A DNA stretch of 64,000 nt. Origin: Verrucomicrobium spinosum DSM 4136 = JCM 18804 (GTDB lineage: Bacteria > Verrucomicrobiota > Verrucomicrobiia > Verrucomicrobiales > Verrucomicrobiaceae). This document shows, in pieces, positions 48,606-63,278 of the stretch. The number at the start of each line of letters is the position of its first letter. Within the stretch, counting starts at the first letter, position 1. The notes beneath the pieces were generated by a model. That model was not told the origin of the DNA. It did no database searches and was given only the letters and a program-made list of their open reading frames with translations. The stretch spans positions 2,203,105 through 2,267,104 of the forward strand of contig NZ_ABIZ01000001.1 in the NCBI RefSeq assembly GCF_000172155.1. Direction: 5' to 3'. The position numbers were made by a program, and so were the translations under genes.

Positions 48606-49494
48606 GTTAGGTGTCCGGGAATTGGCCCGCCCGGTCGGGAGTTGAGTTTGTCTTGCGGCGTTGTGTCGCTCGACATTTGAATAGTATATACAAATCAAAA
48701 CATTGCAAGAGGGTTTCTCAACTTTCTTTTGCCGAGTATGTGCGCGCCATTGTCATCGGCCCTCGCTCCCCCGTGCCCCTGGGTGGATCATGGTCCCTCG
48801 GGTGATTGATGGCGGTGACCCGGTGACTACCTCCTCTCCGCCTATGGCTCGCCCGTGAAGCGGGCCTATTGAGGCGAGGGTGTGCCTCGGGTGATTGACG
48901 AGCAACCGCCCATGATGCGCCCCCTCTCTCTACCTTCGCCCGCGAAGCGGGCCACTTGATGCGCATGAGAGGTCCCTCGGGTCTATACCCTCCCCTTCGA
49001 CCCTATTTCTTGCCCCCTCTCCCCTCGCGCTCCCCTCGCGAAGCGACTCTTTTGCCGGGGAGGGCGCGCCCTCCCCGTGCCCCCTCCCCGTACCCCTCAT
49101 CATCATCTTGGCAGGCATCTTGCCAGCCCGCGAGGGGCCGAAAGACCAAGGTTTCTGACAAGATGCTAAGTCTGACAAGAGAGAGGGATTGCAGTTTGCT
49201 TCTTTGCGGGGTATCCCCCGGTGACAGAACGCGGGGACAACATGTCAGACTTGCCATGTATTGACTCTTAAGGTGTGTTAATTGTCCTTGCTGATAGATA
49301 CTAAGGCCCCCTTAAGGAATCTTTTGGCCCCCCGTCCCGGGAGCGAGTAGGTAAAGCGTCCCCCCCGCTTTTTGAGAGGGGGTGTCACGATTCCATAACG
49401 TCCCCGCTAGGGTGTCCCCGTGCCTCTAGGGCGCGCTGTGGCGGTGCGGTCGGGGTGCCGGGGACAAATTGACACGCGGTCGACCGCGTGCCCC
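48606..49494. other. 889-bp non-coding hairpin-rich region of the phage
   Basis: No gene is supported. An AT-rich island at 48675-48713 gives a leftward promoter (TTGCAA, 16 bp, TACTAT on the minus strand) for the DUF932 operon. Hairpins GCCCG-TGAA-CGGGC-like occur at about 48851 and 48938, CCTCGGGTGATTGA is repeated near 48796 and 48886, a perfect 20-bp palindrome GGGGAGGGCGCGCCCTCCCC lies at 49057-49076, and CTGACAAGA repeats near 49155 and 49171. It separates leftward early from rightward late genes, so it may hold the phage origin or late control region. Confidence 0.6.
49469..49492 (+). promoter_or_regulatory. TTGACACGC-N8-GCGTG site before the terminase genes
   Basis: TTGACA at 49469-49474 runs into a perfect 18-bp palindrome CACGCGGTCGACCGCGTG (49473-49490), just upstream of the start at 49495. 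A second site of the same plan (GACACGC-N8-GCGTGTC) lies before the gene at 52738. It may be bound by a late regulator. Confidence 0.5.
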
Positions 49495-50505
49495 ATGGTT
49501 GCTGAATTCGCCCACATCCTGACCAAGCTCGCGTGCGGGGGAAACCTGAACGGGGACGAAATGACCCGGCTGACAAGTGGGCCGTCCTGCTCGTCTGAGA
49601 CCCGGGAGTTGCAGAGGGCGCGCCTCGCTGCCCTGGTGAGGCGGTGGGCGAAGGGTGGTGACCTCACGAAAGAAGAGATCCGGGAGATGGGAACCACGGT
49701 CCCAGACGGGCGAGCTGGTGCTCAGCGTGTGACCGCTGAGAAGTACAAACACACGCTCGCGCACTATGCGGCTCAGCTCGGGCTCGACTCGAAAGATCCG
49801 ACCCGGAAGCTCAAGAGGTGGATACAGGCAGGGCGGGGTAAGTCTCCTCCGGACCTGCCTCCCTTCGATGACTTGCCATCCATGGCGGACTGGTGGGAGC
49901 GCAACATGGAATGGCGAGTGCCTGACTACCTGCTCAAGCTCAAGGGTGGTGTGCCTACGTCGCCTCCTACCGTGCAGGTGACGCAAGGGGCGGCTGCGGC
50001 TCCTCCCGGGGGTGCTGGCGCGTCAGACGACGCGTTGCCTCCTCCTACCCTCGACATGGATGCGGACGTATCCTCTGACCTCGGCTTGCGTCAGGTCCGC
50101 GCCCTGGTCGTCGGTGTCTTTGATCAGATGGAGAAAGCGAGGTTGGCGCAAAACTTCACTCAGTACCGTACCTTGCAAGCTGAGTGGCAAAAGCTCGTCG
50201 GCACCCTCAGGCAGTGGGAAAAAGATAGCGTGAAGATTCAAGAGGCGAACGGCTCGGTCATCCGGGCCAGTGTGCTGAATGCCGAGATGGTGGGTATGCT
50301 GTCGGTCATGTCCTATTCTATCTTCAATGCTATGATGGTCCTGTCGGAAAAGTTGGCTCCTCATATCGCACCCAGTGACAGGCGCGCCATCGTTGTTCCG
50401 CTGCGCGATGCTGTCTTCATGCACCTTAAGAAGACTCGATACCGCTCCGCGTGGGACGGCACTCAGAAACTCACTGATCCTGCATGGACCTCTTCAGTAG
50501 CCTGA
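49495..50505 (+). CDS. Putative terminase small subunit / DNA-packaging protein
   Basis: From the ATG at 49495 the protein has 336 residues. It lies directly before and overlaps the GpA-type large terminase gene, the place of the small subunit. A helical N-terminus (RRWAKGGDLTKEEIREMG, KYKHTLAHYAAQLGLDSKD) looks DNA-binding, and the middle is a proline/alanine-rich linker. It is longer than Nu1. The assignment depends mainly on position. Confidence 0.6.
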   Translation: MVAEFAHILTKLACGGNLNGDEMTRLTSGPSCSSETRELQRARLAALVRRWAKGGDLTKEEIREMGTTVPDGRAGAQRVTAEKYKHTLAHYAAQLGLDSKDPTRKLKRWIQAGRGKSPPDLPPFDDLPSMADWWERNMEWRVPDYLLKLKGGVPTSPPTVQVTQGAAAAPPGGAGASDDALPPPTLDMDADVSSDLGLRQVRALVVGVFDQMEKARLAQNFTQYRTLQAEWQKLVGTLRQWEKDSVKIQEANGSVIRASVLNAEMVGMLSVMSYSIFNAMMVLSEKLAPHIAPSDRRAIVVPLRDAVFMHLKKTRYRSAWDGTQKLTDPAWTSSVA

Positions 50506-52463
50506 ATCCAGCGTTCCCGCTGTGCATACCGTATCAACTGCAACCGTCGACCACTCCGGAGCATCGTTGGCTAGCGGGGCATGCTGATCGGTGCTTTCGA
50601 GGGAAGCCTACTGAGGCGGCGTGGCAGTGGGCGGGGCGTGAAGTCTGGTTGGGCGGCAAGATGTCCGCCACCCCCAAGCAGTACGACGTCAGCAACACTC
50701 CCTGGACAAAGGAGTGGCAAGAGTTGCCCCTGCGTTCTGACGTGCGTGTCGGGGCATACATGAAATCCTCTCGAACGGGGGTCACTGAGGGCGCGCTCAA
50801 CATCCTCCGGTGGATGCCTGAGAATTGGCCGGGGAATGCGCTCTACTCCATCACGTCAGACAAGAAGGCCCGGGAGATTGTCGACCGCCGAATGTTGACC
50901 ACGATGTCGGCGGGGGTGCTGTCGGCAGACCCGAAGGACACGGGCCTCTCTCGGATCTCACTCGACTCCATGGACATGGTCTTCAGCGGCTCGGGCTCCG
51001 CAGATCCATTTCAGGAAATTTGGTATCGCCTCATCATCCTAGATGAGATCGAGAACCACGTAAAAAATCAGGAAACAACTACCTACAAGCGAGCACGGTC
51101 CCGGCAAACGGACGTGCCTGACGGGCTGGTGCTGGCCATTGCCAAGCCTGAGTTGGCGGGCGGAATCATCGATGAGATATTCATCTCGGGGACTCAGAAG
51201 AAATTCCTGATCCCTTGCCCTCGATGTGAGCGATTGATCGAATTGCGGACTGATCACCTGGTTGTCGAGGGGTGCTATGAAGGAGGTGAATGGGATCTCG
51301 CCCGGGTGGTGACGGAAACTTACTATCAATGCCAGCTCTGCCACGGAAGGATTGAAGAGAAGGAAAAGCGCTCGATGGTCAATAGTGACCTTGCGCGACA
51401 GGTGCCCACGCCTCCCAGTGAGCGGCGGCGTTCGCCTTCGGGGAAGTATGTGCCTCCTGAGCCCGGGGTGGAAAGCTATCACATCAGCGACCTGTACTCG
51501 CTGCATGAGCGCGTGAGTTGGGGTGAGCTGAAACAAATGCACCTGCTCGCCCATGTGATCAATCCCACCCAAGAGGCGAAGAAATATTTCCGAATCAACC
51601 ACGAGGGATGGCCTTGGGAAGATGAAGTGTATTCGGTCACGGCGGAGTCGGTCAAAGCGCTGAAGGCTGGCAGGGTGGAAGACGTGAAGGTCTCGAATGC
51701 GGACGGCACGGAAACCATTATTAAGACGACGCTGGCCCCCCTCTGCCTGCTCACTGATCACAATGGCGATCCGCGAAACCCTGTCTTCTATATGGCCTAT
51801 AAGGACGGGAAGCCTCAGGGCCGATTGCCGTTCAAGCCTGTTTGGATCACCATGACTGCTGACAAGCAGTTCAGTTATTTGAAATATACTGTCTTTGGCT
51901 GGTTGCCTGATGGGCAAGCCTTCTGGATCGACCGTGGCACCGTGCAGGATGAGGATCAGCTTGACGCGACATTGCGGCTCCGTCCCTACTTTATCGAGGG
52001 CGAGGAAGAGCCGATGTTCATCACGGCGGGGCTTATCGACTCGGGACATAGGCCTCATGAGGTCTATCGTTTTTGCTTGAAGATGATAAACCTTCACGGG
52101 TGGATGATCCTCCCTGCGAGGGGTGAGGGCGAGCACGAAGGGTATAAAGGTAAAACGTGGCGGCTCGTGAAAGACTATGTGGACGGCACTCCCATCATGG
52201 TCAGATACTTTTTCGACCATGGCATCAAGAATGAGTTCTATCTCAGTCACGTGCAAAAGAGGGCTGAGCCTCGGCTCTGGTTGCCTCATGACCTTCCTGA
52301 GACCTCAATCGCGGAGCTGACGGCTGAACGATACTCAGAGGAAGAAAAGAAGTGGATTCACGAAAAATCAAAATACGGGCCTAACGATGAGGGTGACGGC
52401 TGCAAGATGCAGTACGTCCTATTTCATGAGAACCGAGACGCGTTACGGGCGCTCGGTCGATAG
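50484..52463 (+). CDS. Terminase large subunit (GpA family)
   Basis: The 659-residue protein matches the lambda GpA family. It has the Walker A-like MKSSRTGVTEG (93-103), Walker B RLIILDEIE (182-190), a zinc-like CPRC...CQLCHG pair in the middle, and a C-terminal nuclease part (VWITMTADKQFSYLKYTVFG, FITAGLIDSGHRPHEVYRF). It cuts and pumps phage DNA into proheads. It overlaps the small-subunit gene by 22 bp. Confidence 0.9.
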   Translation: MDLFSSLNPAFPLCIPYQLQPSTTPEHRWLAGHADRCFRGKPTEAAWQWAGREVWLGGKMSATPKQYDVSNTPWTKEWQELPLRSDVRVGAYMKSSRTGVTEGALNILRWMPENWPGNALYSITSDKKAREIVDRRMLTTMSAGVLSADPKDTGLSRISLDSMDMVFSGSGSADPFQEIWYRLIILDEIENHVKNQETTTYKRARSRQTDVPDGLVLAIAKPELAGGIIDEIFISGTQKKFLIPCPRCERLIELRTDHLVVEGCYEGGEWDLARVVTETYYQCQLCHGRIEEKEKRSMVNSDLARQVPTPPSERRRSPSGKYVPPEPGVESYHISDLYSLHERVSWGELKQMHLLAHVINPTQEAKKYFRINHEGWPWEDEVYSVTAESVKALKAGRVEDVKVSNADGTETIIKTTLAPLCLLTDHNGDPRNPVFYMAYKDGKPQGRLPFKPVWITMTADKQFSYLKYTVFGWLPDGQAFWIDRGTVQDEDQLDATLRLRPYFIEGEEEPMFITAGLIDSGHRPHEVYRFCLKMINLHGWMILPARGEGEHEGYKGKTWRLVKDYVDGTPIMVRYFFDHGIKNEFYLSHVQKRAEPRLWLPHDLPETSIAELTAERYSEEEKKWIHEKSKYGPNDEGDGCKMQYVLFHENRDALRALGR

Positions 52464-52489
52464 CCGTCTTGACAGCCTTATACCCGTAG

Positions 52490-52681
52490 ATGTCCGAATC
52501 GAAAGATGCTCAGACGGCACTCTTGCAGGCCCTGCATGATCAAGGGGTTGCGGGCAACTTGGTGTGTCGCTTCCGGGGTTACGGTGTGCTCGTGCTGTGC
52601 CTCCCGGAGTACGGCAATGCAGAGCAGTTGCTTTTGGAGCCTACGCCTCCTGTGTCGGTGAATGAAGGCTCTGGGCCATAA
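52490..52681 (+). CDS. Small hypothetical phage protein
   Basis: The 63-residue protein begins MSESKDAQTALLQALHDQGV and ends in a proline-rich tail. It occupies the slot between terminase and portal where lambda has the joining protein gpW, but the sequence does not show it. TTGACA lies 15 nt upstream of its start. Confidence 0.5.
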   Translation: MSESKDAQTALLQALHDQGVAGNLVCRFRGYGVLVLCLPEYGNAEQLLLEPTPPVSVNEGSGP

Positions 52682-52718
52682 GTGCGAATACCCTTAGCTC
52701 GTTGTGCCGCGTGGGACA

Positions 52719-52742
52719 TTGACACGCATTTCCCAGCGTGTC
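52719..52742 (+). promoter_or_regulatory. TTGACACGC-N8-GCGTGTC site
   Basis: TTGACA (52719-52724) continues into GACACGC (52721-52727), an 8-bp spacer and GCGTGTC (52736-52742). The right arm contains the GTG start codon at 52738. It matches the plan of the site at 49469-49492. Confidence 0.5.
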
Positions 52743-53064
52743 CGCCCTGCAAGCAAACCCTGAGTTGTTAATCAGTTCCCTCCTGCGTCATGCAGGGACG
52801 TTGCCAGACGGCAAGGGGTGGCTAGTCACCACTCAAAACACGGCTCGAACCGCCTGGATGAGTGGGGATGAGTACGCGACTCAAGTCTCAGATCAGGGGA
52901 GCAACACGAGCTGGATGCGGGAAATCGCCGCTCACGTGCTCGACCAGCTCTGCGAGTCAGCCATTCAAAGGCTGGAACTCACTGAGGAAACGGGTGGATC
53001 AAAGCCGCCTGTTGGAAATCTGAGCTACGCGGATTTCAGCGGCGGGCCTTGCACCATGGGATAA
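52738..53064 (+). CDS. Small hypothetical head protein
   Basis: The 108-residue protein (GTG start) lies just before the portal gene. It begins MSALQANPELLISSLLRHAG and has a helical middle (WMREIAAHVLDQLCESAIQR). It may be a head-joining or connector protein by position. I do not recognise its family. Confidence 0.5.
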   Translation: MSALQANPELLISSLLRHAGTLPDGKGWLVTTQNTARTAWMSGDEYATQVSDQGSNTSWMREIAAHVLDQLCESAIQRLELTEETGGSKPPVGNLSYADFSGGPCTMG

Positions 53065-53067
53065 TCT

Positions 53068-54609
53068 ATGAGCAGACGCAAAAGGTACTCTCATCAGCAA
53101 AACAATGGCGCGCACGTGCGCGCCATTTCCGCTCCAGACCTGACGCTCTCTGCCATGCAGGGTTCGTTTCAGGGTGCCGAATTTTCCCGGGATCGAGGGT
53201 ATATCTACCTTCCCACTCTCGATACAAAAAAGGAAGTCGATGAGTGGAGCCGACTTGAGCTGCTCAAGCGGAGTCGCTTCATCTACAACTCCGGGGGTGG
53301 GTTGATTCATCGGGCCGTCAATGGTGTCGCTCGAATGGTGGTTGGCACTGGACTGATGCCTTACCCGCTGGTGAAAAACAAGGAGTGGAGTCGGCGCGTC
53401 CGGATGCTCTACTCAAGCCGTTGCGGATCGGCCAATACCTTCCACCTCGGCAAGCGCTTCAACACTGGTCAGGCTCAGCGAGCTATCATTCGCTGCAAGA
53501 TCAAAGATGGTGACGGGGCTGCGGTGTTGGCTCGGGACGAGGAAACGAATCGCCTGCGTATCGCGCTCTACGAATCCAACCAAATCGGAAACGGTCGGAA
53601 GCATGAACCAAACAAGCGTTGGCATGACGGTGTGTTGCTTGATCAACACACGGCAGCGCAAGCCTTCCGATTCTTGGGCACGAATGACCGGAATCAGGAA
53701 ACGACTGTTGATGTCCCGGCAGAGAACGTCCTGTTCTTTGCGAATTACGAGCGCATCAATCAGGTGCGCGGGCTCACTCGATTCTATCCAGTGCTTAACA
53801 AGGTGCTGGATCGTGGTGAGATCATGGCGGCTCTGACAAAGGGCATCAAGGTCGCGAGCCATATCGCCTACGTTATTGAGGAAGCGGCTCAGCAAACGAG
53901 CAATGTTGCTGGAGCTGGGGGGGCTTTGGCTCCTCGTCCTCAAAAGTTCATCGAAACGAATGACGGGAAAAAGATCTCTCTTGAGCAGTTCCTCATGGGC
54001 GGGGAAGCGTGGGGCCTAAAGCCCGGGCAGACCTTCAAAATGGTTCAGTCCACGAATCCTAGCCAGAACGTCAGGGAGCACCTGAATGACCTGGTTAGAG
54101 ACGTGGCTCTCGCGCTCGATTATTTCCCTGAAATCCTCTGGAACATCATTGGCCTCGGTGGCGCGAATATGCGCTTCGTGCAGGCGGACACTCAGAGCAA
54201 GATCGAGGAAGAGCAGGAGGACTTGGTTGATCAGTTCCTCGGGCCTCACTACATCGCCTGGTTGCGCGACATGATCGAGCACGGTGAGATTGAGGATATT
54301 GAGGGGTGGGAAAATCACGCGTGGCTCGCGCCCGCTCGCTTGACCGTCGACTTTGGTCGGGACGGAAAGCTTCACATCGAGCAATACAAGCGGGGCATGA
54401 TCACCATGAAATCCCTCTACGGGTTTCGCGGTGAAGAGTGGCAGATCGAGATTGATCAGTATCTCGACGAACGGCTCTACATCAAAGAGGGAGTCGAGGC
54501 CCGCAAGCTCACGTGGGAGGAAGCTTATCCAGAGCAGCGGCAGCAAACCATTGAGCCTGCCAAAGATGAGGAAGAGGAAGAAGACAAGATCCCTGAGGTA
54601 ACACCATGA
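53068..54609 (+). CDS. Phage portal protein (lambda gpB type)
   Basis: The 513-residue protein has the lambda-type portal pattern: LIHRAVNGVARMVVGTGLMP, YESNQIGNGRKHEP-like domain, VDVPAENVLFFANYERINQV and RGLTRFYPVLNKVLDRGEIM. It forms the ring at the prohead vertex through which DNA enters. Its N-terminal 20 codons contain the 24-bp palindrome that is shared with the integrase gene. It overlaps the protease gene by 4 bp. Confidence 0.92.
   Translation: MSRRKRYSHQQNNGAHVRAISAPDLTLSAMQGSFQGAEFSRDRGYIYLPTLDTKKEVDEWSRLELLKRSRFIYNSGGGLIHRAVNGVARMVVGTGLMPYPLVKNKEWSRRVRMLYSSRCGSANTFHLGKRFNTGQAQRAIIRCKIKDGDGAAVLARDEETNRLRIALYESNQIGNGRKHEPNKRWHDGVLLDQHTAAQAFRFLGTNDRNQETTVDVPAENVLFFANYERINQVRGLTRFYPVLNKVLDRGEIMAALTKGIKVASHIAYVIEEAAQQTSNVAGAGGALAPRPQKFIETNDGKKISLEQFLMGGEAWGLKPGQTFKMVQSTNPSQNVREHLNDLVRDVALALDYFPEILWNIIGLGGANMRFVQADTQSKIEEEQEDLVDQFLGPHYIAWLRDMIEHGEIEDIEGWENHAWLAPARLTVDFGRDGKLHIEQYKRGMITMKSLYGFRGEEWQIEIDQYLDERLYIKEGVEARKLTWEEAYPEQRQQTIEPAKDEEEEEDKIPEVTP
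53104..53127. repeat. 24-bp perfect palindrome, copy 2
   Basis: The 24-bp palindrome consists of the 20-bp core TGGCGCGCACGTGCGCGCCA flanked by AA and TT. It encodes NNGAHVRAI at the portal N-terminus. The same core is in the integrase gene at 34543-34562. Confidence 0.9.
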
Positions 54610-55529
54610 ATTTCTCCCACCTTTTACGTGCAATGTACTTCGAGCCGCTCAGCGTTGAGCCCTCGGTTTTTCAGGCTATGCATGCAACTATTTGGCCGCG
54701 CATCGTTGGCGGTCATAGCTTGGAAAACCTTGAGTTGCAAGCTGCCGGCTCTGGACAGAATTCGAAGGTCTATCGAAATCCGTACTCTTCACGGCGTGCC
54801 ACTCAGCTCTTTCCCTCGGTGGACCGGATGTCGGGGCAGGTGGTCAATGATGAGTTCTTTTATCGCCTCGAAGGTAAATCGAATGTGGCGGTCATCCCGA
54901 TCTATGGAGTCTTGGCGAAGAATGCAGGCCTCCTTCAGCAAGTCTGCATGGGTTTCTGTGACATCAATCCAATCGCTCACGCGGTCAATCAGGCGGCGAA
55001 AGCAAAGGATGTCTCGACCATTGTGCTCGATATTGCCAGCCCTGGCGGTCAGGTGAAGGGTATTCGTGAAACCGCCTCAGCGGTGAGGGCTGCGGCGAAG
55101 ACTCGTGGCAAAACGGTCTATGCCTTTTCAGATGAGAATATGGCAAGCTCTGCCTACTACCTTGGTAGTCAGGCGAATGAAATCTACGTCACGCCATCTG
55201 CCACCGTGGGGAGTATAGGAACTTACCTCGCGTGGCTCGATCCCACGATGAAGCTCGCCATGGAAGGCTTGAAGCTTGAGTTCTTCGGGGCGGGGCAGCA
55301 CAAGGGAATGGGGCTGCCTGGAAAGCCTTTGAGCGAAGGTGACCGCGTCTTGCTTCAGGCCACCGTGGATGAGTTCAATGGATGGTTTACCTCCGCCGTA
55401 CAAGGGGCGCGTCCGAAAGTGGTGAATGCCACTATGCAGGGGCAATCCTTCAGTGGTGAGCGGGCGGTGGGGGTTCGACTCGCTGACGGCATCTGTGATA
55501 CGTGGGACGAATTCATCGATCTGCTCTGA
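54606..55529 (+). CDS. S49-family prohead protease (lambda gpC type)
   Basis: The 307-residue protein is an SppA/S49 serine peptidase: VAVIPIYGVLAKNAG, TIVLDIASPGGQVKGIRE, catalytic Ser182 in MASSAYYLGSQANEIYV, and the general-base Lys233 in FFGAGQHKGMGLPG. It processes head proteins during prohead maturation. The overlapping ATGA with the portal gene ensures coupled translation. In lambda the scaffold is nested in this gene; here a separate scaffold-like gene lies downstream. Confidence 0.9.
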   Translation: MNFSHLLRAMYFEPLSVEPSVFQAMHATIWPRIVGGHSLENLELQAAGSGQNSKVYRNPYSSRRATQLFPSVDRMSGQVVNDEFFYRLEGKSNVAVIPIYGVLAKNAGLLQQVCMGFCDINPIAHAVNQAAKAKDVSTIVLDIASPGGQVKGIRETASAVRAAAKTRGKTVYAFSDENMASSAYYLGSQANEIYVTPSATVGSIGTYLAWLDPTMKLAMEGLKLEFFGAGQHKGMGLPGKPLSEGDRVLLQATVDEFNGWFTSAVQGARPKVVNATMQGQSFSGERAVGVRLADGICDTWDEFIDLL

Positions 55530-55553
55530 GTTATTCGACAACGGTCTCAGTGC

Positions 55554-55853
55554 ATGAAGAGAATCGTTCAAGTCCTCGTGGTTGTCTGCCTTTTCTGTTG
55601 GGAGGCATTGAACACTCTTGCCATCAACAAGCTGATGTCTGCGGACGAAAGTCTTGCGGCGGCGCTGGGCGACTCCGCTCGAAATGAGAATTGGATGCGA
55701 GGTGAGGTCGATGAGCTTTGGCAGGAGTGTCAGAGGATCGATGGCGGTGTGTTCTTTAACCGATATTTCCACGACAGGCTTCGCGAGCGAGTGGATAGAA
55801 TGGAGTCAGCTCCCCGTGATCTCAAAATAAACCCTGTGCTTCCTTCGGAATGA
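55554..55853 (+). CDS. Small exported or membrane-anchored phage protein
   Basis: The 99-residue protein starts with a hydrophobic segment (RIVQVLVVVCLFCWEALNTL) that could be a signal or anchor. The rest is acidic and helical (ENWMRGEVDELWQECQRIDG). Function is unknown. TCGACA, a one-base variant of the recurrent TTGACA, is 13 nt upstream. Confidence 0.5.
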   Translation: MKRIVQVLVVVCLFCWEALNTLAINKLMSADESLAAALGDSARNENWMRGEVDELWQECQRIDGGVFFNRYFHDRLRERVDRMESAPRDLKINPVLPSE

Positions 55854-55854
55854 T

Positions 55855-56244
55855 ATGAAACTTTTCGCAATCAATGACTACGAGGTTTGGATGGGGCCTT
55901 CGAAAGAAGCGGTTCTTGAGGGATTGAAGTCTGAGTACGTCGAGCTTGAAGATTTAGTTTTCGAGGATGGCGTTAAAGAGTTGTCAGATGAGGCTCTTGA
56001 TCGCTTGATGTTCAATGATTCCGATGATCGGGATTATACCGGTTTCCATCATTGGCAATGTGAGTGCGGAGCCATGGCGGACGCTCGTTGCAGGTGGAAT
56101 GGTCAGGCTTACGAGCATCCTCACCCTTACCCTGTTGGGCACGTGCTCATGAAGAATATTCATCGGCGGCCCTTCCGTGAGGAGCTGGCTCGTTTGGTTG
56201 CCTCTGGAGCGGGGGTGCAGATGTTTTCCTCAACCGAATACTGA
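55855..56244 (+). CDS. Hypothetical phage protein
   Basis: The 129-residue protein has a helical acidic N-terminal half and a histidine/cysteine-containing middle (FHHWQCECGAMADARC) that could bind a metal. It is followed without a gap by the next gene. Not recognised. Confidence 0.5.
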   Translation: MKLFAINDYEVWMGPSKEAVLEGLKSEYVELEDLVFEDGVKELSDEALDRLMFNDSDDRDYTGFHHWQCECGAMADARCRWNGQAYEHPHPYPVGHVLMKNIHRRPFREELARLVASGAGVQMFSSTEY

Positions 56245-56586
56245 ATGAGTGTGGGTGAGCAGATGCATCTCCTGTTGGGCAGTGACAACGTGCCCTGCGT
56301 GTGTTGTGGTGGCCGTTCGTGCGAGCATCTGGATGATTGCCCGGTTTTCTCAAAATCGTTGCAGGAGCACCTAGAGGAGTTGGATAACTGGCTATGGAAT
56401 GAATCTGAACTCTATCGCATGGAAAAGAGCGGTGAGTTGAGAAGACGTCGGAGGCTCCTCAGTATTGACAGACCTTTGGCAGGGTATGAAGAAACGCTCT
56501 GCCCTTGTTCCCCTGATCTCCGGTGCGATCCTTATCGCGATGCTGGTGCCGATGGCTCTGGCCTTCGGAATGATTCCTCTCCCTGA
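56245..56586 (+). CDS. Cysteine-rich hypothetical phage protein
   Basis: The 113-residue protein has CVCCGGRSCEHLDDCPVF near its N-terminus. Its last third overlaps the following scaffold-like gene by 101 bp in another frame, which is unusual. Either it is shorter in practice, or the downstream gene starts later. Confidence 0.45.
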   Translation: MSVGEQMHLLLGSDNVPCVCCGGRSCEHLDDCPVFSKSLQEHLEELDNWLWNESELYRMEKSGELRRRRRLLSIDRPLAGYEETLCPCSPDLRCDPYRDAGADGSGLRNDSSP

Positions 56587-57244
56587 CCTCGTTACCTTGG
56601 GGGCGGGCGCTCCTCATGTCACCTCGGGGGGCGTTCTTTGCGCGAGTCTGGGCGGAATGATGTTCCTGCGTCCGCCTCTAATGGAGGCTGAGGATGACGT
56701 GCCTCCCGGGTCTGGGGGCGGCGGCAAGGGCGATGGTCCTCAGGCGACCATGACTATCGCTCAGCGATTTGTGGCGGCAGCCTCTCTGATAGCCAAAGGT
56801 GAAAAGGCTGTGGCGGATCTCAACGCGACGATTGATCAGCTAACTTCTGATGTGTCCGCCAGAGACGCAACTATAACTGAGTTGCAGGGAAACTTGACCG
56901 CTGCGAACGAAAGAGTCGCTGCTCTCGAAGCTGAAGCGAAGGCTACGGAAGATGCGCTCAAAGCGATTGAGACGGAATCCGAAAAACTTAAGGCGAAGGA
57001 AGCGGACGTTGAAAAGAGGGCGGACTCCAAAGCAAAAGAGAAGGTGGCGGCTCTTGGTTTCCCTGCTGGTAAGCTCCCTGCGGCGACCTCTGATAATCCG
57101 GGCGAAGTCTCGGCGGAGGATCAGATTCGCAAGCTCCGGGGCTCTGAGCGCATTCGTGCAGGTATCGAATTCAAGCAGAAGGGGAAGCTCCCGGATTGGG
57201 TGCCTGATGCAGTCGCAAAGCTTGAGGCGGCAGCGAAGAAATAA
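56486..57244 (+). CDS. Probable scaffold-like coiled-coil protein
   Basis: From the ATG at 56486 the protein has 252 residues. It begins with two hydrophobic stretches (ALVPLISGAILIAMLVPMAL and VLCASLGGMMFLRPPL), then a long coiled coil (TIDQLTSDVSARDATITELQ, RVAALEAEAKATEDALKAIE). Its place directly before the major capsid gene and the coiled coil suggest a scaffold. The membrane-like N-terminus is odd for a scaffold; a later start such as the Met near 56750 (MTIAQRFVAAASL) would remove it. TTGACA lies 15 nt upstream of 56486. Confidence 0.55.
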   Translation: MKKRSALVPLISGAILIAMLVPMALAFGMIPLPDLVTLGAGAPHVTSGGVLCASLGGMMFLRPPLMEAEDDVPPGSGGGGKGDGPQATMTIAQRFVAAASLIAKGEKAVADLNATIDQLTSDVSARDATITELQGNLTAANERVAALEAEAKATEDALKAIETESEKLKAKEADVEKRADSKAKEKVAALGFPAGKLPAATSDNPGEVSAEDQIRKLRGSERIRAGIEFKQKGKLPDWVPDAVAKLEAAAKK

Positions 57245-57253
57245 CCCTCCGCG

Positions 57254-57259
57254 TTGACA
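57254..57259 (+). promoter_or_regulatory. TTGACA hexamer upstream of the capsid gene
   Basis: TTGACA is 45 nt before the major capsid start at 57305, in a 60-bp gap. Unlike the other copies it is far enough upstream to be a true -35 element; no good -10 box is seen. Confidence 0.35.
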
Positions 57260-57304
57260 TAGGTCGCCCCTCGTTACCCAACAGTCTAACTTACCTAAAC
57301 TATC

Positions 57305-58219
57305 ATGCCTCAAGGTCGAATCACCATTGTTGATGCGATGCAGCCCCATCTTGTGTTGGGCAACATCGTTGAAGAGAACGTCGCTCAGACGCCTGAACTG
57401 GGGGTGATCCCGGTTCGTGTGCTCGAAAGTGGCATCAGGTACAACACTCTCGCCATGGTCGAGTTGCCAACCACGGGCTTTCGTAAGCTTGGCGAGGGCA
57501 TGCCTGCCAGCAAGGGGCGCTATGAGCCGCGTGAGCACAAGTGTTTCCTTTTCGGCGGACGCGTCGAGGTGGAGAGGGCTGCTGCTGCTGCTGACGCTGG
57601 CGGGATGTCCGCCATTGAGGCGCGTGCAACCCGGGGTGTTATGCTCTCGGCCCTGGCGACGCTTGGGCCTCAGATCTTCTACGGCACTGATCGCGGTGCC
57701 GATGGCTTTCAGGGTCTCAAGGCCTTCACTCCTTTCGGTGGTGCGTATACCAAAAACGCCACGGGTACGACTGCCTCAACGGCTACGTCAGTGTTTGGCG
57801 TGAAGCTTGGCGAGGATTACGCTGAGTTGATCGCGGGTCAGGGCAATGTCTTCGACCTCGGTGAGTTCCGTGATCAGGACATCCTGGGGACGAACAACAA
57901 GCCGCTCCCCGGTCGGGTCGCTGATCTTGAGGGCTGGATCGGTCTTCAGCTCAATCACAAGGCCAGTGCCGTTCGAGTGTGCAACATCACTGCCGACGTG
58001 GGCAAGGGTTGCACGGACAAGTTGCTCGGTGACGCACTGGACTTGCTGCCTGTGGGTGCGGAGCCTGATTACTGGTTCATGAATAAGCGCTCCCGCAATC
58101 AGCTTCGCCTGAGCCGCTCCACTCCGGAGAATGTGTATCCTGACATGCCGACTGAATCGAACGGCATCCCGATCATCTGCACGGATTCGATCCTCAACAC
58201 GGATGCCATCGAAGTCTAG
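57305..58219 (+). CDS. Major capsid protein
   Basis: The 304-residue protein fits the place and size of a phage major capsid protein. It has GIRYNTLAMVELPTTGFRKL, an acidic-basic loop with YEPREHKCFLFGGRVEVER, and the terminal IPIICTDSILNTDAIEV typical of capsid C-termini. The protein is compact and has few charged low-complexity regions. It is followed by a separate cement-type gene. Confidence 0.82.
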   Translation: MPQGRITIVDAMQPHLVLGNIVEENVAQTPELGVIPVRVLESGIRYNTLAMVELPTTGFRKLGEGMPASKGRYEPREHKCFLFGGRVEVERAAAAADAGGMSAIEARATRGVMLSALATLGPQIFYGTDRGADGFQGLKAFTPFGGAYTKNATGTTASTATSVFGVKLGEDYAELIAGQGNVFDLGEFRDQDILGTNNKPLPGRVADLEGWIGLQLNHKASAVRVCNITADVGKGCTDKLLGDALDLLPVGAEPDYWFMNKRSRNQLRLSRSTPENVYPDMPTESNGIPIICTDSILNTDAIEV

Positions 58220-58281
58220 TCCCTGGCTGATCAGCGCGTCCGTCTGACTTAAACCCACTCTTTCAATCGGAGATAAATTTT

Positions 58282-58698
58282 ATGCCTCCCTCCTCATATC
58301 CCGGAAAAATTCGCGACACTCAACTCAAGGTCAGCAAAGTGTTGCCTGCGGCTAACGCCAACAACAACACTGACCCTATCGACCTGATCGCCGATAACCC
58401 TGGTATCAATGCCCGGGGCTACGAGGCTGAGATTGTGGTCGATGTACTGCCTTCCTTGGTGGATACCAAGAAGGTCACCGTGACGGTTCAGGACAGTGCA
58501 GACGGCACGAACTTCGCGGCCATCCCTGAGCTTGCTACCGTCGTCCTGACAGGGGCGGGTGGTGTCGGTGCTGCTGCGGTCACTCGCACGGTGAAGTTGC
58601 CTCAGACTGTGCGCCGTTACATCCGCCTCAACACGGCGGTCGAGGCGGCTGGCGGTGACAATACCGCCAAGAGCGTCGCTCTCTCCATCGTCTTCTGA
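58282..58698 (+). CDS. Putative capsid cement protein (Bbp16-like)
   Basis: The 138-residue protein has a beta-rich pattern (VTVTVQDSADGTNFAAIPEL, TVKLPQTVRRYIRLNTAVEA) like Bbp16-type capsid decoration proteins. It directly follows the capsid gene, as decorators do. It starts MPPSSYPGKIRDTQLKVSK. Confidence 0.65.
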   Translation: MPPSSYPGKIRDTQLKVSKVLPAANANNNTDPIDLIADNPGINARGYEAEIVVDVLPSLVDTKKVTVTVQDSADGTNFAAIPELATVVLTGAGGVGAAAVTRTVKLPQTVRRYIRLNTAVEAAGGDNTAKSVALSIVF

Positions 58699-58745
58699 TC
58701 CTCAATCCGGATCGGGTCAACTCAAAAAGTTCTTTCCTGTAACTC

Positions 58746-59051
58746 ATGAAAACCGTTCATTACCATCAAGCTGGCAAGCCTCCCACCGAAATGCATGTCG
58801 TAAAGACGCATCCCGGGGGCGCGAAGGTGGATCTTGCATACGAAGAAAAAGGTGAGGTGGTCGTCTCTGGCTGCGTCCTCAGCCTCACGCCTGAGATTGG
58901 CTCGGCGACAGTCATCGTCGACGAATCCGACAAGGGGAAGAAGAAGACTGAAGCGAAGGTCAAGCTCCCTGAGGGTGGTGCGCCTCCCGCTCCTGCTGTC
59001 CCTCCGGTCGGCGGCGAGAGTGGTCCCCCGGTTGAGGGAGATCCCAAATAA
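58746..59051 (+). CDS. Hypothetical head-region protein
   Basis: The 101-residue protein has an N-terminal beta region and a proline/glycine-rich, probably disordered, C-terminus (EGGAPPAPAVPPVGGE). Its sequence gives no family. A terminator follows it. Confidence 0.5.
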   Translation: MKTVHYHQAGKPPTEMHVVKTHPGGAKVDLAYEEKGEVVVSGCVLSLTPEIGSATVIVDESDKGKKKTEAKVKLPEGGAPPAPAVPPVGGESGPPVEGDPK

Positions 59052-59094
59052 CTTTCTGGCCATAAGGCTGGATGCTACCAAGGTTGTGTGTCAC

Positions 59095-59137
59095 AAACGC
59101 CGTTCGGGACTTCTCCCCCGGGCGGCGTTTTCTTTGA
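59095..59137 (+). terminator. Rho-independent terminator after the capsid operon
   Basis: AAACGCCG (59095-59102) and CGGCGTTT (59123-59130) form an 8-bp stem; an inner CGGG/CCCG can extend it. A TTTTCTTT run follows. It should reduce read-through from the strongly expressed capsid genes into the head-tail genes. Confidence 0.75.
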
Positions 59138-59152
59138 CAGTAGTTCGCTTGC

Positions 59153-59500
59153 ATGCCCTCTGCTGCTGCTGTTCGTGCCGCCTTTGACCGTGACAGGGAG
59201 ATGCGCCACGCGTGCTATGCGAAGGACGTGACGCTCGATGGCACGAAGAAAACGGGGATCTATTCCCCTCCCGTGTTTGAACGTGTGCAGGCGGGTGAAG
59301 GTGGTGGCTCCGAATATGACTTCGATGCAACGGTCAAACTTAAGAAGGCGGATTGGCCCGCGTTCCCGACCTCGGTGTCATTCAATGAAAAGATCATCAA
59401 GATCCACTTGGAAGGCGGGCTCGTGGTCTATCAGATCAAGGCTGTGACTGATCTCCATAATACCGGGGAATGGAAGCTGGTGCTTGAGGCGATGGTTTGA
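59153..59500 (+). CDS. Putative head-tail connector protein
   Basis: The 115-residue protein lies after the capsid operon terminator. It has a beta-rich C-terminal part (VSFNEKIIKIHLEGGLVVYQ, VTDLHNTGEWKLVLEAMV). Head-tail connectors occupy this position. TTGACA is 13 nt before its start. Confidence 0.5.
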   Translation: MPSAAAVRAAFDRDREMRHACYAKDVTLDGTKKTGIYSPPVFERVQAGEGGGSEYDFDATVKLKKADWPAFPTSVSFNEKIIKIHLEGGLVVYQIKAVTDLHNTGEWKLVLEAMV

Positions 59501-59516
59501 CAGGTGCTCGCCTTCA

Positions 59517-60107
59517 ATGAGTGAAATGCCCGTTGAACCGAGGATTCTGGTTGGTGACATTGAAACTACTGGCTTGGATGAGAGGCGGCATAGCATCCTA
59601 AAGATTGGCCTGACCTGGATGACTGGGGGAGTTGGGCAGTTCTCCATTCAATGCCGCATGTGGGAAGGTGCGGAATGGGATGCGCGGGCGGCGGAGGTGC
59701 ACGGCATCAGTTTCAAGGAGGCTAATGATCCAGCGTTGCCGACTGAGCATGATGCAGTTTCGAACGCGTTCGATTGGATTGGGCAGGAAAAGTTCATCTT
59801 CGCGGGATTGAATCCCCATATGGATCGGCGCTTTCTGAATTATGCCCGTATCCGTCCTGGCTTTCAACGCGGGGTGCTTCCAGACATTGGCCATCGGATG
59901 ATTGATCTGCATTCCTTGGCGGTGCCTTTCGCTTTGGCTTCGGGGGCTGCTGTGCCTCCCCGTGGTTTCAATACGGATGAGATTTACAGTCTTCTGGGGA
60001 TGCCTCCAGAGCCTCGCCCTCATGACGCGATCACTGGGGCCTTGATGGAGGCTGAGGCGTTCCGAATCCTGTTCGGGTGGCCTACGCTCTCAGAGGTGCA
60101 ACCATGA
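59517..60107 (+). CDS. DEDD 3'-5' exonuclease-like protein
   Basis: From the ATG at 59517 the protein has 196 residues. Motif I is VGDIETTGLDE (Asp14, Glu16), motif II is in FIFAGLNPHMDRRFLNYAR, and motif III is PHDAITGALMEAEAF with the His-Asp of the DEDDh class. This is the RNase T / DnaQ type fold. Such exonucleases are unusual inside a head-tail block. It might degrade host nucleic acid or act in DNA repair; the data cannot decide. Confidence 0.8.
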   Translation: MSEMPVEPRILVGDIETTGLDERRHSILKIGLTWMTGGVGQFSIQCRMWEGAEWDARAAEVHGISFKEANDPALPTEHDAVSNAFDWIGQEKFIFAGLNPHMDRRFLNYARIRPGFQRGVLPDIGHRMIDLHSLAVPFALASGAAVPPRGFNTDEIYSLLGMPPEPRPHDAITGALMEAEAFRILFGWPTLSEVQP

Positions 60108-60667
60108 ATTCGGCCATTGAACAAGGCCTGCGTGCGTACCTCACCGAGAAGTTCGGGGCGGTCGACACCCTGATTGGTGAGGGTGTGGGCGCGGTTACCC
60201 TGTTGGCTTGCGTGATTGAGGGGGCAACGGTCTCCCTGCACTGCAACGTTGGGAAAGACGTTCTGCCGGACTCCGTTCCATACGTGATCGTTGGGATCAA
60301 GGATGTCCAGCATCGAGTTGGTGAGCTGTACGATGGTGAAGTCTTAATCGCGGTCTCCACTCCTGACAACGTGGCGGGAGTGAGTGAGGTGCAGCATCGA
60401 GCGGTGGTCAAGGCTCTGCGGCAGTGCTGGCCAGATATGCAGAGGCTTTACGCGGATCGCGCCCGGGCCGTATCGGCGGAAGACATTGCGGCCACTCAGG
60501 CAGCGTTGGATGCGGGGCTTGCGAATACTGCGGCGATTTCTGCGGCTCTGGAGGCTGCTGCGGGGGTTTCCACGGCGGGCTACTTTTTTCAAGGTGTGGG
60601 TGAGAGTCTTGGCAACAACCGCTGGCAAGCTCAGATCAGGATCAAGCTAGGGTTGCGGGAGGTTTGA
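60104..60667 (+). CDS. Putative tail-completion protein
   Basis: From the ATG at 60104 the protein has 187 residues and overlaps the exonuclease gene by 4 bp. The C-terminus (SLGNNRWQAQIRIKLGLREV) is a beta-rich segment like those of tail-completion proteins. The middle has an alanine-rich helical stretch. Assignment is by position. Confidence 0.5.
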   Translation: MNSAIEQGLRAYLTEKFGAVDTLIGEGVGAVTLLACVIEGATVSLHCNVGKDVLPDSVPYVIVGIKDVQHRVGELYDGEVLIAVSTPDNVAGVSEVQHRAVVKALRQCWPDMQRLYADRARAVSAEDIAATQAALDAGLANTAAISAALEAAAGVSTAGYFFQGVGESLGNNRWQAQIRIKLGLREV

Positions 60668-60682
60668 CAACCTCTTTCCACC

Positions 60683-61363
60683 ATGGCTGCTGCAATCGGA
60701 GTTCTTTCTACTTTTGGCATCGTGCTCCCGGATGGGGCGGAGGCTCAATCATCGCAACGGACGCAATCCGTAGAGATCTCCGAACTTGTCGGAGCTGCGG
60801 GTGAGTATGTGAAAGCTGATCCGCTGCACGCCAAAAAGACGGATGTCACTGTGACCTATGTAGGCGAGCCGATGCATGCCTCTGTGACATCGGCAGCTAT
60901 CGCGCTGCCTGCAACTATGACGATCATCAAGAGTGATGCGACTGAGGTCAACAATGGTCGCGTCTCTTGCACCGTGATGGCGTCAGGGCATTCGGCCTTT
61001 ACTGACGCTGCGGGGGCGAGCCCTGGTGTGGGCGCTGGTGATCCGGATGAGGACACGCTCAACATCGTTAGTTGTTCCTTCTCCCTAGCGGAGAACGTTC
61101 AGGTTTCCCACGAGGTTCAGGACAAAATGATTCTGGGGGGCGATGGTGCTCCCGGGGCTCGTGCGACCTGCCTTCAGAAGAATTCCTTCACGACGCGCTT
61201 TCGTGGTGACCTTCCTGCCGGGGTGGTACTGGGCACCTCTGGCGCGGGCGTCAAGGGCTTGGAGGACGGCAAGCTTCTTGTGAATCAGCTCATGGAAGAG
61301 CAGAAAATGGATGATTTCAACGGCGGGTCGGTCGGTGGAAACCACTACCCTCTCGCGGCATGA
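60683..61363 (+). CDS. Putative tail tube (major tail) protein
   Basis: The 226-residue protein follows the completion gene and precedes chaperone- and tape-measure-type genes. It is rich in beta-forming residues and small residues (TDVTVTYVGEPMHASVTSAA, NIVSCSFSLAENVQVSHEVQ). The order fits a tail tube protein. TTGACA is 13 nt upstream. Confidence 0.55.
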   Translation: MAAAIGVLSTFGIVLPDGAEAQSSQRTQSVEISELVGAAGEYVKADPLHAKKTDVTVTYVGEPMHASVTSAAIALPATMTIIKSDATEVNNGRVSCTVMASGHSAFTDAAGASPGVGAGDPDEDTLNIVSCSFSLAENVQVSHEVQDKMILGGDGAPGARATCLQKNSFTTRFRGDLPAGVVLGTSGAGVKGLEDGKLLVNQLMEEQKMDDFNGGSVGGNHYPLAA

Positions 61364-61854
61364 GTCTTTGGCTCGGCTGTGTGCCTGTGGTGTTCCACGA
61401 GCGCGATCTTGTTGCCCGCATTCCTTCTTGCGTCCCTATCGTGGCTGCGGTCATGGCTGCGGGTTGGCGGCTCTCCAATGATGGTTTCCCCAACCATACC
61501 GACGTGTTGGAGGGGGTGGCGCATGTGCAGGATTTTAAGCGCGCCAGTCCCTCCAAATTGTCACGTGTGATCACGTTTCGTTTCCGTACTCAAAGGATCG
61601 CCTGCGAAGGTGACTTGATGCGGATCGAGGAATTCGTTGCTCGGTGTCAGAGCGAGCCTGCGTTCCTCCGTGCGGCAAAGGCGCTCCCTCGCTATGAGCA
61701 CTGGATCAGGCAGCTTTGTGCCAAGCTGCCGGAGGTCCCCCGTTCGCTGCAAGCCTCGGAGCCTGATGCTCATGATCGCACCTTGGTTGTTCCCATGCAT
61801 GGGCGGCCCGATTGGGTGAGGCGGTTCGCTCAACAATATGAGGATGGATTCTGA
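61360..61854 (+). CDS. Hypothetical tail-region protein
   Basis: The 164-residue protein overlaps the previous gene by 4 bp. It has a hydrophobic stretch (IPIVAAVMAAGWRLSNDG-like) and many basic residues. No family is recognised. The next gene begins 2 bp later. Confidence 0.5.
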   Translation: MSLWLGCVPVVFHERDLVARIPSCVPIVAAVMAAGWRLSNDGFPNHTDVLEGVAHVQDFKRASPSKLSRVITFRFRTQRIACEGDLMRIEEFVARCQSEPAFLRAAKALPRYEHWIRQLCAKLPEVPRSLQASEPDAHDRTLVVPMHGRPDWVRRFAQQYEDGF

Positions 61855-61856
61855 CC

Positions 61857-62507
61857 ATGGAGCTGAATGATTTCGAGCGATCCCTCTTTCTGGATCTCGC
61901 GTTCTTCGCGGAAGACTCGTCCTTTGAATCGCATGACCTTCGCCCTGTCTCACTGGCAAGCTTTAAGGCGATGGAGATCATGGGGATTAAGCTGATGGAG
62001 TTGGACCCGGGTCTTTCGGTCGAGGAAGAGACTCAGCAAATCGCGGCCTTCATCTGGCTGCACGGACAGCCTTTGCCTGCTGTGTGCTCCGCACTTTGGT
62101 CGGGGCGTTGGAGGGTGGTAATGGAGTCTTTCAATGAACCCATGCCGAGCATCGTTGCTGCCTTTCGCCAGTGGCGAATTCGCATTGTGGCGATGATTCA
62201 CGCGGCAAGCATCAACATTCGGCCTAGGCCGAAAAAGGTGGGTGCTAAAGATGATTCGCCCCGTGACCTTGTTGGGCCTAGCCAGTTCGCGTTCACTATC
62301 GGAACCATTGCCAGCTATACCCATTTCAGTCGCCAAGAGATCAAGTGGCATATCTTTCTCCCTGAGGCGATGCAATACTACCACGCGGCTTTGCGCGACT
62401 CGGGTTACTGGACGGTCCCCGTGGGGAGGCGGGTCACTGAGGAAGATGTCTCGGACCTTGTTCCGGACTTCCTCAAGGGTGCGGTTGACACGGGGCAACC
62501 TCCGTGA
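61857..62507 (+). CDS. Putative tail assembly chaperone-like protein
   Basis: The 216-residue protein is acidic at its N-terminus (MELNDFERSLFLDLAFFAED) and helical overall. Tail chaperones lie just before the tape measure gene; here one more gene intervenes. I see no slippery-frame site linking it to a second frame. The assignment is weak. Confidence 0.45.
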   Translation: MELNDFERSLFLDLAFFAEDSSFESHDLRPVSLASFKAMEIMGIKLMELDPGLSVEEETQQIAAFIWLHGQPLPAVCSALWSGRWRVVMESFNEPMPSIVAAFRQWRIRIVAMIHAASINIRPRPKKVGAKDDSPRDLVGPSQFAFTIGTIASYTHFSRQEIKWHIFLPEAMQYYHAALRDSGYWTVPVGRRVTEEDVSDLVPDFLKGAVDTGQPP

Positions 62508-63278
62508 ATGAGAGATGGCCTTACACTAAAAACGGATCGCTTCGCCCGGGCAATGACCCTGCTGGCGGGCTATACGAGTAAGACTATCGAAGATGAAATG
62601 CTCTCTCAGTCGAAGGGGGTAATTCGTGAGGTGCTTTCGATCACGCCACCCGCACAACGGGGCGAGGGCGTCAAGCTGATGGGCGTAGCTGCTCGTCGAG
62701 CTGGTGAGGCAAGAATTGATGCGGATCTACGCGGAGTGTTTCAGGGTGTGAAGATCCGGGGCTTTCGGATGGTGCCTCATCTCTTTGGTGATCGCTCGCC
62801 TGAGGTGGGGAAAAAGCCGCCCTATCGCGTCGCGACCAAAGAGAAGCATTTGAACGTTGAGGGCATTTACAATGCCCGTCAGGCCTCGCGTTCACGTCGA
62901 GGCAAGAAGTCTCTGACTCGTGGGCAGAGGGCTCCTTACTATGTGGATGAAAAGAAGCTCGATGCCCTGGCGCGAAAGCTGAAGGGGAACGTCGGGAAAT
63001 TGGCGCAAGGGTTCAAGCCTGCGGCTGATCGCCTAGGGTTGGCGATGCCTGTCTATGCGCGGGGTCAACACAATGCGCCCGGGTCCATCGACATCGATTT
63101 TAAGCCGAATCACCTCCGCATCGTTTTCACAAACAATGTTTCATACAGTGCCCTGGTGCCTGATATGCCTCGTCGGATGCAATGGGCTGTTGATCAACAG
63201 GCCCGAAAGATTGAGCGGCAGCTTCCCTATCTGATCCGGAAGGCTGCTCGTGACAGTGGTTTCAAAGTGCGTTCATAA
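62508..63278 (+). CDS. Putative minor tail or tail-terminator-like protein
   Basis: The 256-residue basic protein abuts the previous stop. It contains repeated arginine/lysine patches (ARQASRSRRGKKSLTRGQRA) and a beta-rich end (IDFKPNHLRIVFTNNVSYSA). It directly precedes the tape measure gene. No family is recognised with confidence. TTGACA lies 17 nt upstream, inside the end of the previous gene. Confidence 0.5.
   Translation: MRDGLTLKTDRFARAMTLLAGYTSKTIEDEMLSQSKGVIREVLSITPPAQRGEGVKLMGVAARRAGEARIDADLRGVFQGVKIRGFRMVPHLFGDRSPEVGKKPPYRVATKEKHLNVEGIYNARQASRSRRGKKSLTRGQRAPYYVDEKKLDALARKLKGNVGKLAQGFKPAADRLGLAMPVYARGQHNAPGSIDIDFKPNHLRIVFTNNVSYSALVPDMPRRMQWAVDQQARKIERQLPYLIRKAARDSGFKVRS

Follow-up and report, generated by a model that had tools for sequence, protein, structure and literature searches.

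The window analysed here is a 64,000-nucleotide (nt) stretch of the Verrucomicrobium spinosum DSM 4136 genome (8,220,857 bp; contig NZ_ABIZ01000001.1, positions 2,203,105 to 2,267,104, forward strand), and it contains a prophage adjoining the tmRNA gene. An integrase-like gene lies at 33341, and the prophage extends beyond the end of the window to about 75 kb in extended coordinates. The element of interest is the hexamer TTGACA, which stands a short distance upstream of many late gene starts. The original prediction had listed nine copies, with 20, 15, 13, 15, 45, 13, 14, 13 and 17 nt between hexamer and start, together with a one-base variant, TCGACA, 13 nt before the start at 55554. Every one of the nine was found on the + strand at the distance given, and the variant was confirmed by reading the sequence. 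The sites are listed below, where base 14 is the fourteenth nucleotide after the hexamer, ie the first base of the start codon when the gap is 13.

49469-49474, + strand: TTGACA site 1, first late gene start at 49495, gap 20; base 14 is G at 49488
52469-52474, + strand: TTGACA site 2, start at 52490, gap 15; base 14 is A at 52488
52719-52724, + strand: TTGACA site 3, gap 13; the GTG start at 52738 is base 14
55535-55540, + strand: one-base variant TCGACA, gap 13; the ATG start at 55554 is base 14
56465-56470, + strand: TTGACA site 4, start at 56486, gap 15; base 14 is G at 56484
57254-57259, + strand: TTGACA site 5, gene start at 57305, gap 45; base 14 is G at 57273
59096-59133, + strand: terminator-like hairpin with a T-run which merges into TTGACA site 6
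59134-59139, + strand: TTGACA site 6, gap 13; the ATG start at 59153 is base 14
59497-59502, + strand: TTGACA site 7, start at 59517, gap 14; base 14 is A at 59516
60664-60669, + strand: TTGACA site 8, gap 13; the ATG start at 60683 is base 14
62485-62490, + strand: TTGACA site 9, start at 62508, gap 17; base 14 is G at 62504

Past the window end there are two further copies, each exactly 13 nt upstream of a start (extended positions 67447 and 72081). The late 26 kb of the prophage holds 13 forward and no reverse copies, 11 of the 13 preceding a gene start, and the early 16 kb has none on either strand. Over the whole window TTGACA is scarce (14 copies, against 26.4 in shuffled sequence), so the cluster is not explained by composition. 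For 31 late starts, the hexamer was present within 30 nt upstream in ten cases; a first-order Markov model gave a mean of 0.16 and a maximum of 3 in 2,000 runs, which bears out the enrichment that the original prediction had proposed as a check. The next-ranked hexamers preceded six and five starts and both overlap TTGACA, and the best non-overlapping hexamer preceded three. The 31 starts were picked by hand from lists of open reading frames (ORFs), with 49495 and 56486 taken as in the original prediction, and this may have introduced a small bias. One of them was placed 12 nt early (60092, which should be 60104), and no hexamer lies near either position.

Relatives were found by terminase search, for which the following gene served as query.

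50484-52463, + strand: terminase large subunit (TerL) gene

The set consisted of IMG/VR contigs, where the best 80 of 211 were kept, and of four further genomes among the 288 Verrucomicrobiales genomes searched. A portal scan for relatives matched this prophage only, a scan with the terminase of locus L050 returned L050 and L051 only, and nothing was gained by a DNA search with L087. The same genome carries a second prophage of the family on the opposite strand (G000:C1:5035920-5064140, L020-L023), whose terminase is 49% identical and in which the motif is present. The 8.2 Mb genome has 45 occurrences of the pattern TTGACA-N13-RTG (N is any nucleotide, R is A or G), against 34 for the reversed pattern; seven occurrences are in the prophage in the window, where two of the RTGs are not annotated starts, and seven in the second prophage, on the other strand. 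The V group of relatives (27 loci including this prophage, TerL identity 37-100%) contains 169 forward and six reverse copies of TTGACA, and the W group (50 loci, TerL 21-26%) 133 forward and 13 reverse. The gap to the start codon was 13 at 52 of 153 non-redundant V-group sites and 14-16 at 25 of them; in the W group it was 13-15 at 36 of 56. Conservation in related phages, which the original prediction had named as a check, was thus observed: the motif recurs in the second prophage, in other Verrucomicrobiota genomes and in metagenomes. In nine named phages whose terminases are distant, including Akkermansia phage Moulinsart and Verrucomicrobia phage P8625, no more than two copies each have an RTG near the usual distance. 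Their forward/reverse counts are 2/1, 9/11, 18/14, 9/12, 1/2, 7/7, 14/6, 12/9 and 14/7, with a forward lean in two, P8625 (14/6) and Arya (14/7).

Some features of individual relatives were recorded separately. In P8625 (L130), TTGACA at 5412 and 10736 is followed by inverted GTATC...GATAC repeats directly upstream of gene starts, and the combination may be a further start-linked element, in this case of a Verrucomicrobia phage. In three W-group contigs a TTGACA-N13 site after a capsid-like gene (L087 9241, L092 11394, L112 17346) runs into AAATCC/GAAATCC repeats and has no start codon. The tail region of W-group contig L085 (6851-11517) contains ORFs which, judged by eye, resemble a glycosyltransferase, a radical S-adenosylmethionine protein and a dehydrogenase E1-like protein.

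The distribution of the hexamer over the two DNA strands was compared with a fourth-order model. Over 337 kb of late sequence from 21 V loci, the reverse complement of TTGACA was present once, against 28.2 expected, the lowest value of 172 permutations; TTGACA itself was present 152 times, against 69.8 expected, the highest. In the early regions of nine V loci the two orientations occurred 0 and 1 times (expected 6.0 and 6.7), and the host flanks were normal (17 and 13, expected 12.8 and 13.2). An RNA signal gives no reason for avoidance of the reverse complement, which argues for a site in DNA. Sites without a nearby start codon, defined as having no ATG, GTG or TTG from N10 to N19, were informative as to what lies at base 14. 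A pyrimidine-purine (YR) step into that base, which V-group sites with a start codon show as well, was found at 32 of 46 such V-group sites, with other positions giving 4-15. Terminator-like structures were also associated with the hexamer. For ORFs encoding at least 100 amino acids in late sequence from 13 V loci, a hairpin and T-run ended no more than 85 nt upstream of 10 of 78 starts with TTGACA, compared to 8 of 300 without. Such a structure lay within 40 nt of 12 of 126 TTGACA sites (unmatched random places gave a mean of 1.8 and a maximum of 6), and 15 of 34 terminator-like hairpins on the late strand had TTGACA within the next 60 nt, the near-copies L044 and L052 being counted apart. 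In 41 aligned sites a T or A stands directly before the hexamer and there is otherwise no conserved base from -45 on.

Comparison of the early genes in 17 early regions yielded a small helix-turn-helix protein as the candidate reader of the motif. In this prophage it is encoded next to a ParB-like protein, which is given for context only.

38620-39651, + strand: candidate trans-acting factor, an early-region helix-turn-helix protein of 343 amino acids with a TRAAVSKR-type helix and a KSExAR..Y..Q.GN tail
39644-42217, + strand: ParB-like protein gene, directly after the candidate factor gene

The same helix and tail characterise the family, whose three subgroups are linked by profile-profile comparison (hhalign E values 2.7e-10, 3.2e-6 and 2.7e-4; probabilities 97, 88 and 41%). 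All 18 motif-bearing loci that extend at least 4.2 kb upstream from the terminase match contain a member (the 17 regions and a fragment in L043). Thirteen of the 17 members went into the models, and the independent matches are G029, G025, G047, L047 (weak, E 0.0018) and L043. The family was found in none of the nine named control phages. The family of the ParB-like protein encoded beside the factor is present in 8 of the 17 early regions. Primase and helicase-like families, each in 11 of 17, were considered for the same role and disfavoured, because Akkermansia phage Moulinsart, which lacks the motif, has an annotated primase with a 533-amino-acid gene after it; neither family seems to track the motif.

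The factor profiles match 32 of 288 Verrucomicrobiales genomes and 9 of 337 genomes from the phylum, and regions were also collected by this protein alone. Up to 20 kb downstream was fetched for 40 of the 48 listed matches outside known prophages, the others being G226 (downstream side off the contig), a second match on the G434 contig and six weaker matches. Summed over these regions there were 133 forward and 37 reverse copies of TTGACA, and 70 forward and seven reverse with ATG or GTG at N13-16. Ten of the 21 regions of at least 17 kb hold four or more forward sites with a start at N13-16, and one has four sites on the reverse strand (L183, on the G434 contig, where the second match is on that strand). 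The long regions were positive in five of six cases at E values up to 1e-8 and in 5 of 15 above that. In the ten positive regions, which were selected as positive, a start at N13-16 follows 59 of 86 hexamers, and the next permutations (15/50 and 12/38) overlap TTGACA. The YR step into base 14, shown in these regions by sites with a start codon as well, was present at 12 of their 19 start-free sites, with 0-9 at other positions. Association of protein and motif could also arise without a functional link, through shared phage descent. In the same ten regions (among L149-L188), G, G and C are favoured at N11-N13, directly upstream of the start codon.

An AlphaFold2 model of the second prophage's member (predicted local distance difference test score, pLDDT, 70.7; predicted template modelling score 0.46) has a confident helical core at about residues 80-160. 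The model of a W-group member, with a pLDDT of 56.6, was too poor for structure search. Sequence searches of the factor against the Protein Data Bank gave only weak helix-turn-helix matches, SigA among them, and PHROGs gave nothing informative; Pfam Sigma70_r4 matches 2 of 18 members weakly, with a best E value of 0.02. The best match of the fold to viral structures was an uncharacterised protein, at E 0.042. Twelve early-region proteins were searched and none matched RNA polymerase, the late proteins not being part of that search. A T7-type RNA polymerase (PF00940) gave no match in five genomes, nor in 14 control genomes, so its absence is not shown.

Taken together, the sequence evidence makes it likely that this phage group has a compact, directional late promoter in which TTGACA is the main recognition element. 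Its transcripts would begin with the purine 14 nt downstream of the hexamer, at the YR step, which would place TTGACA at about -19 to -14. Many late mRNAs would then begin at, or a few bases from, their ATG or GTG and be leaderless or nearly so; for site 5, with its gap of 45, a leader of about 32 nt is predicted before the gene at 57305. The sites appear to precede genes or gene clusters that need a transcription start of their own, in some cases immediately after a terminator. The probable reader of the promoter is host RNA polymerase, which the phage helix-turn-helix protein encoded at 38620-39651 would redirect. The original prediction had offered two ideas, a binding site for a late regulator and a non-standard translation signal. 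Strand avoidance, the YR step, the terminators and the co-occurring protein support the former, and the latter has become less likely.

A more specific version of the promoter can be drawn, in which TTGACA-N12-YR is a minimal promoter used by host polymerase and a small phage factor, whose sigma-region-4-like domain would grip the -35 word about 16 bp nearer the start than is the case in sigma-70 promoters. Late mRNAs would be leaderless and the promoter would have no -10 box, in a widespread group of Verrucomicrobiota phages. This version is tentative, and we regard it as rather unlikely to hold as it stands.

A number of observations weigh against the promoter. The V-group spacer is GC-rich and A-poor with no -10 box, which is odd for DNA that must melt. 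Two forward copies in the prophage itself do not fit, one inside a gene (71269) and one directly before a terminator-like hairpin (73638 in extended coordinates, L011 11743), and 19 of the 34 terminator-like hairpins have no TTGACA in the next 60 nt. Among the relatives, L059-L061, L063 and L064 (TerL 32-39%) have five forward copies and one reverse, none at the usual gap; of L050 and L051 (TerL 37%), L051 has no TTGACA and L050 has three, none with a start at N13. Some W loci carry the hexamer in their early part (L071 177, L105 428), the W group has the YR step into base 14 at only 1 of 10 start-free sites, and in the L087-L114 subgroup several genes have GGAG-like sequences between TTGACA and ATG, which would be lost from the mRNA if transcription started at base 14. 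Strictly leaderless initiation across all groups was not upheld in view of these GGAG-like sequences and the W sites lacking the YR step. As to the factor, no copy was found in 13 loci that have 2.6-3.7 kb of upstream sequence, perhaps because it is situated outside them, and 11 of the 21 long protein-found regions have no cluster on that strand. Its best Foldseek match in the Protein Data Bank was 3vfz (E 0.45, probability 0.94) with none at or below 0.001, the top rows being mostly sigma region 4 domains; VIA likewise returned mostly sigma factors, at Z no higher than 5.9, which is within that tool's 'common' range and not significant. The modelled fold is weakly suggestive of sigma region 4, a lead rather than a result.

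The hexamer might instead act in the mRNA, UUGACA guiding the ribosome or a phage factor to a start codon 13-15 nt downstream. The sharp V-group peak at a gap of 13 would suit such a signal, as would the GGAG-like sequences of the one subgroup and the overlap of the hexamers at 59497, 60664 and 62485 with the end of the preceding gene, and a directional analogue exists in the start-associated sequences (SAS) of cluster K mycobacteriophages (PMC3203893). The promoter is nevertheless preferred because the reverse complement is avoided, which is unexpected for an RNA signal, because V sites without a nearby start retain the YR step, because terminators are commoner upstream of TTGACA starts and because the early V regions lack the hexamer; a translation signal is in our judgement unlikely. 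Avoidance on both strands of early regions and the co-occurring helix-turn-helix protein would also suit an operator for a late regulator (a repressor, roadblock or antitermination site) with the real promoter elsewhere. That arrangement is quite improbable given the strict orientation and the near-fixed distance to starts. Moreover, where the hexamer follows a terminator stem by 4-9 nt, a promoter ahead of the start would have to fit into TTGACA-N13 alone, and the aligned sites offer no other conserved element than the T or A before the hexamer.

TTGACA is also the exact consensus -35 hexamer of sigma-70 promoters, and the sites could be ordinary -35 boxes with 17-bp spacing. Transcripts would then begin about 17 nt inside the genes, and the first codons, counted from a start at base 14, are alike across relatives (judged by eye, with no alignment). 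No TATAAT-type -10 element was found in the aligned sites about 17 bp downstream of the hexamer, with a start some 7 bp further, where one would belong. The point made in the original prediction, that a classical -35 box does not fit, is upheld by both spacing and the missing -10, and ordinary sigma-70 promoters are very improbable. Elements of the sigma-54 -24/-12 and extracytoplasmic function types were set aside for a misfit in spacing, judged by eye. Chance or composition has in its favour that the hexamer is only 6 bp long; with 10 of 31 starts against 0.16 expected, and recurrence in other phages, it is refuted by the counts and its probability is close to nil.

Two further features of the prophage were noted. 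The interval separating the early genes from the first late gene (47748-49490) holds a minus-strand DUF932-like gene (47748-48698) and sequence in which no gene is clear. A 26-nt near-identical repeat containing the palindrome GGCGCGCACGTGCGCGCC occurs at 34541-34566, near the 3' end of the integrase gene, and at 53104-53129, inside a portal-like gene; because the phage also encodes a ParB-like protein (39644-42217), the repeat might be its site.

If the promoter is as proposed, the late regulon of these little-studied Verrucomicrobiota phages would be defined from sequence alone, their late genes could be found and oriented by it, and one testable protein would be named as the switch. For bacterial transcription, a promoter reduced to the -35 word, which is moved beside the start and lacks an AT-rich region for melting, would be a surprising arrangement, and translation of leaderless late genes would be informative on the process in Verrucomicrobia. 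No description of a TTGACA late motif was found in the literature searched, which left out most subscription journals.

Among known systems, the late promoters of phage T4 resemble the proposed ones in that a phage factor, gp55, directs host polymerase to a single short element. The T4 element is AT-rich and stands at -10, whereas TTGACA would lie at about -19 to -14 and its spacer is GC-rich. In Thermus phage P23-45 promoters are so near their genes that transcripts start at the start codon. Transcripts of this sort are predicted for the TTGACA sites; the P23-45 promoters are of the extended -10 type, whereas the TTGACA sites have no -10 element. The closest described systems are the SAS and the late promoters of phage AR9. 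The SAS of cluster K mycobacteriophages have the consensus GGGATAGGAGCCC and were linked by the authors to translation initiation sites (PMC3203893). They resemble TTGACA in being asymmetric and repeated, in having a predominant orientation and in standing immediately before the starts of many phage genes, and their function is described as unknown. The consensus GGGATAGGAGCCC is not matched by the TTGACA motif, which comprises 6-7 bp, lies 13 nt from the start and shows avoidance at the DNA level, of its reverse complement in late regions and of both orientations in early ones. The late promoters of jumbo phage AR9 are described as AACA-(6N)-TA/G (PMC5312081). Like the TTGACA sites they have a single short element, a fixed spacer and many copies before late genes, and initiation is at a purine, as predicted here; they differ in being read by a phage-encoded multisubunit polymerase and in having leaders of 26-491 nt, whereas the sites described here have another hexamer and spacing and are predicted to give near-leaderless mRNAs. 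The proposed element would be a phage late promoter with its own probable regulator and of unusual geometry.

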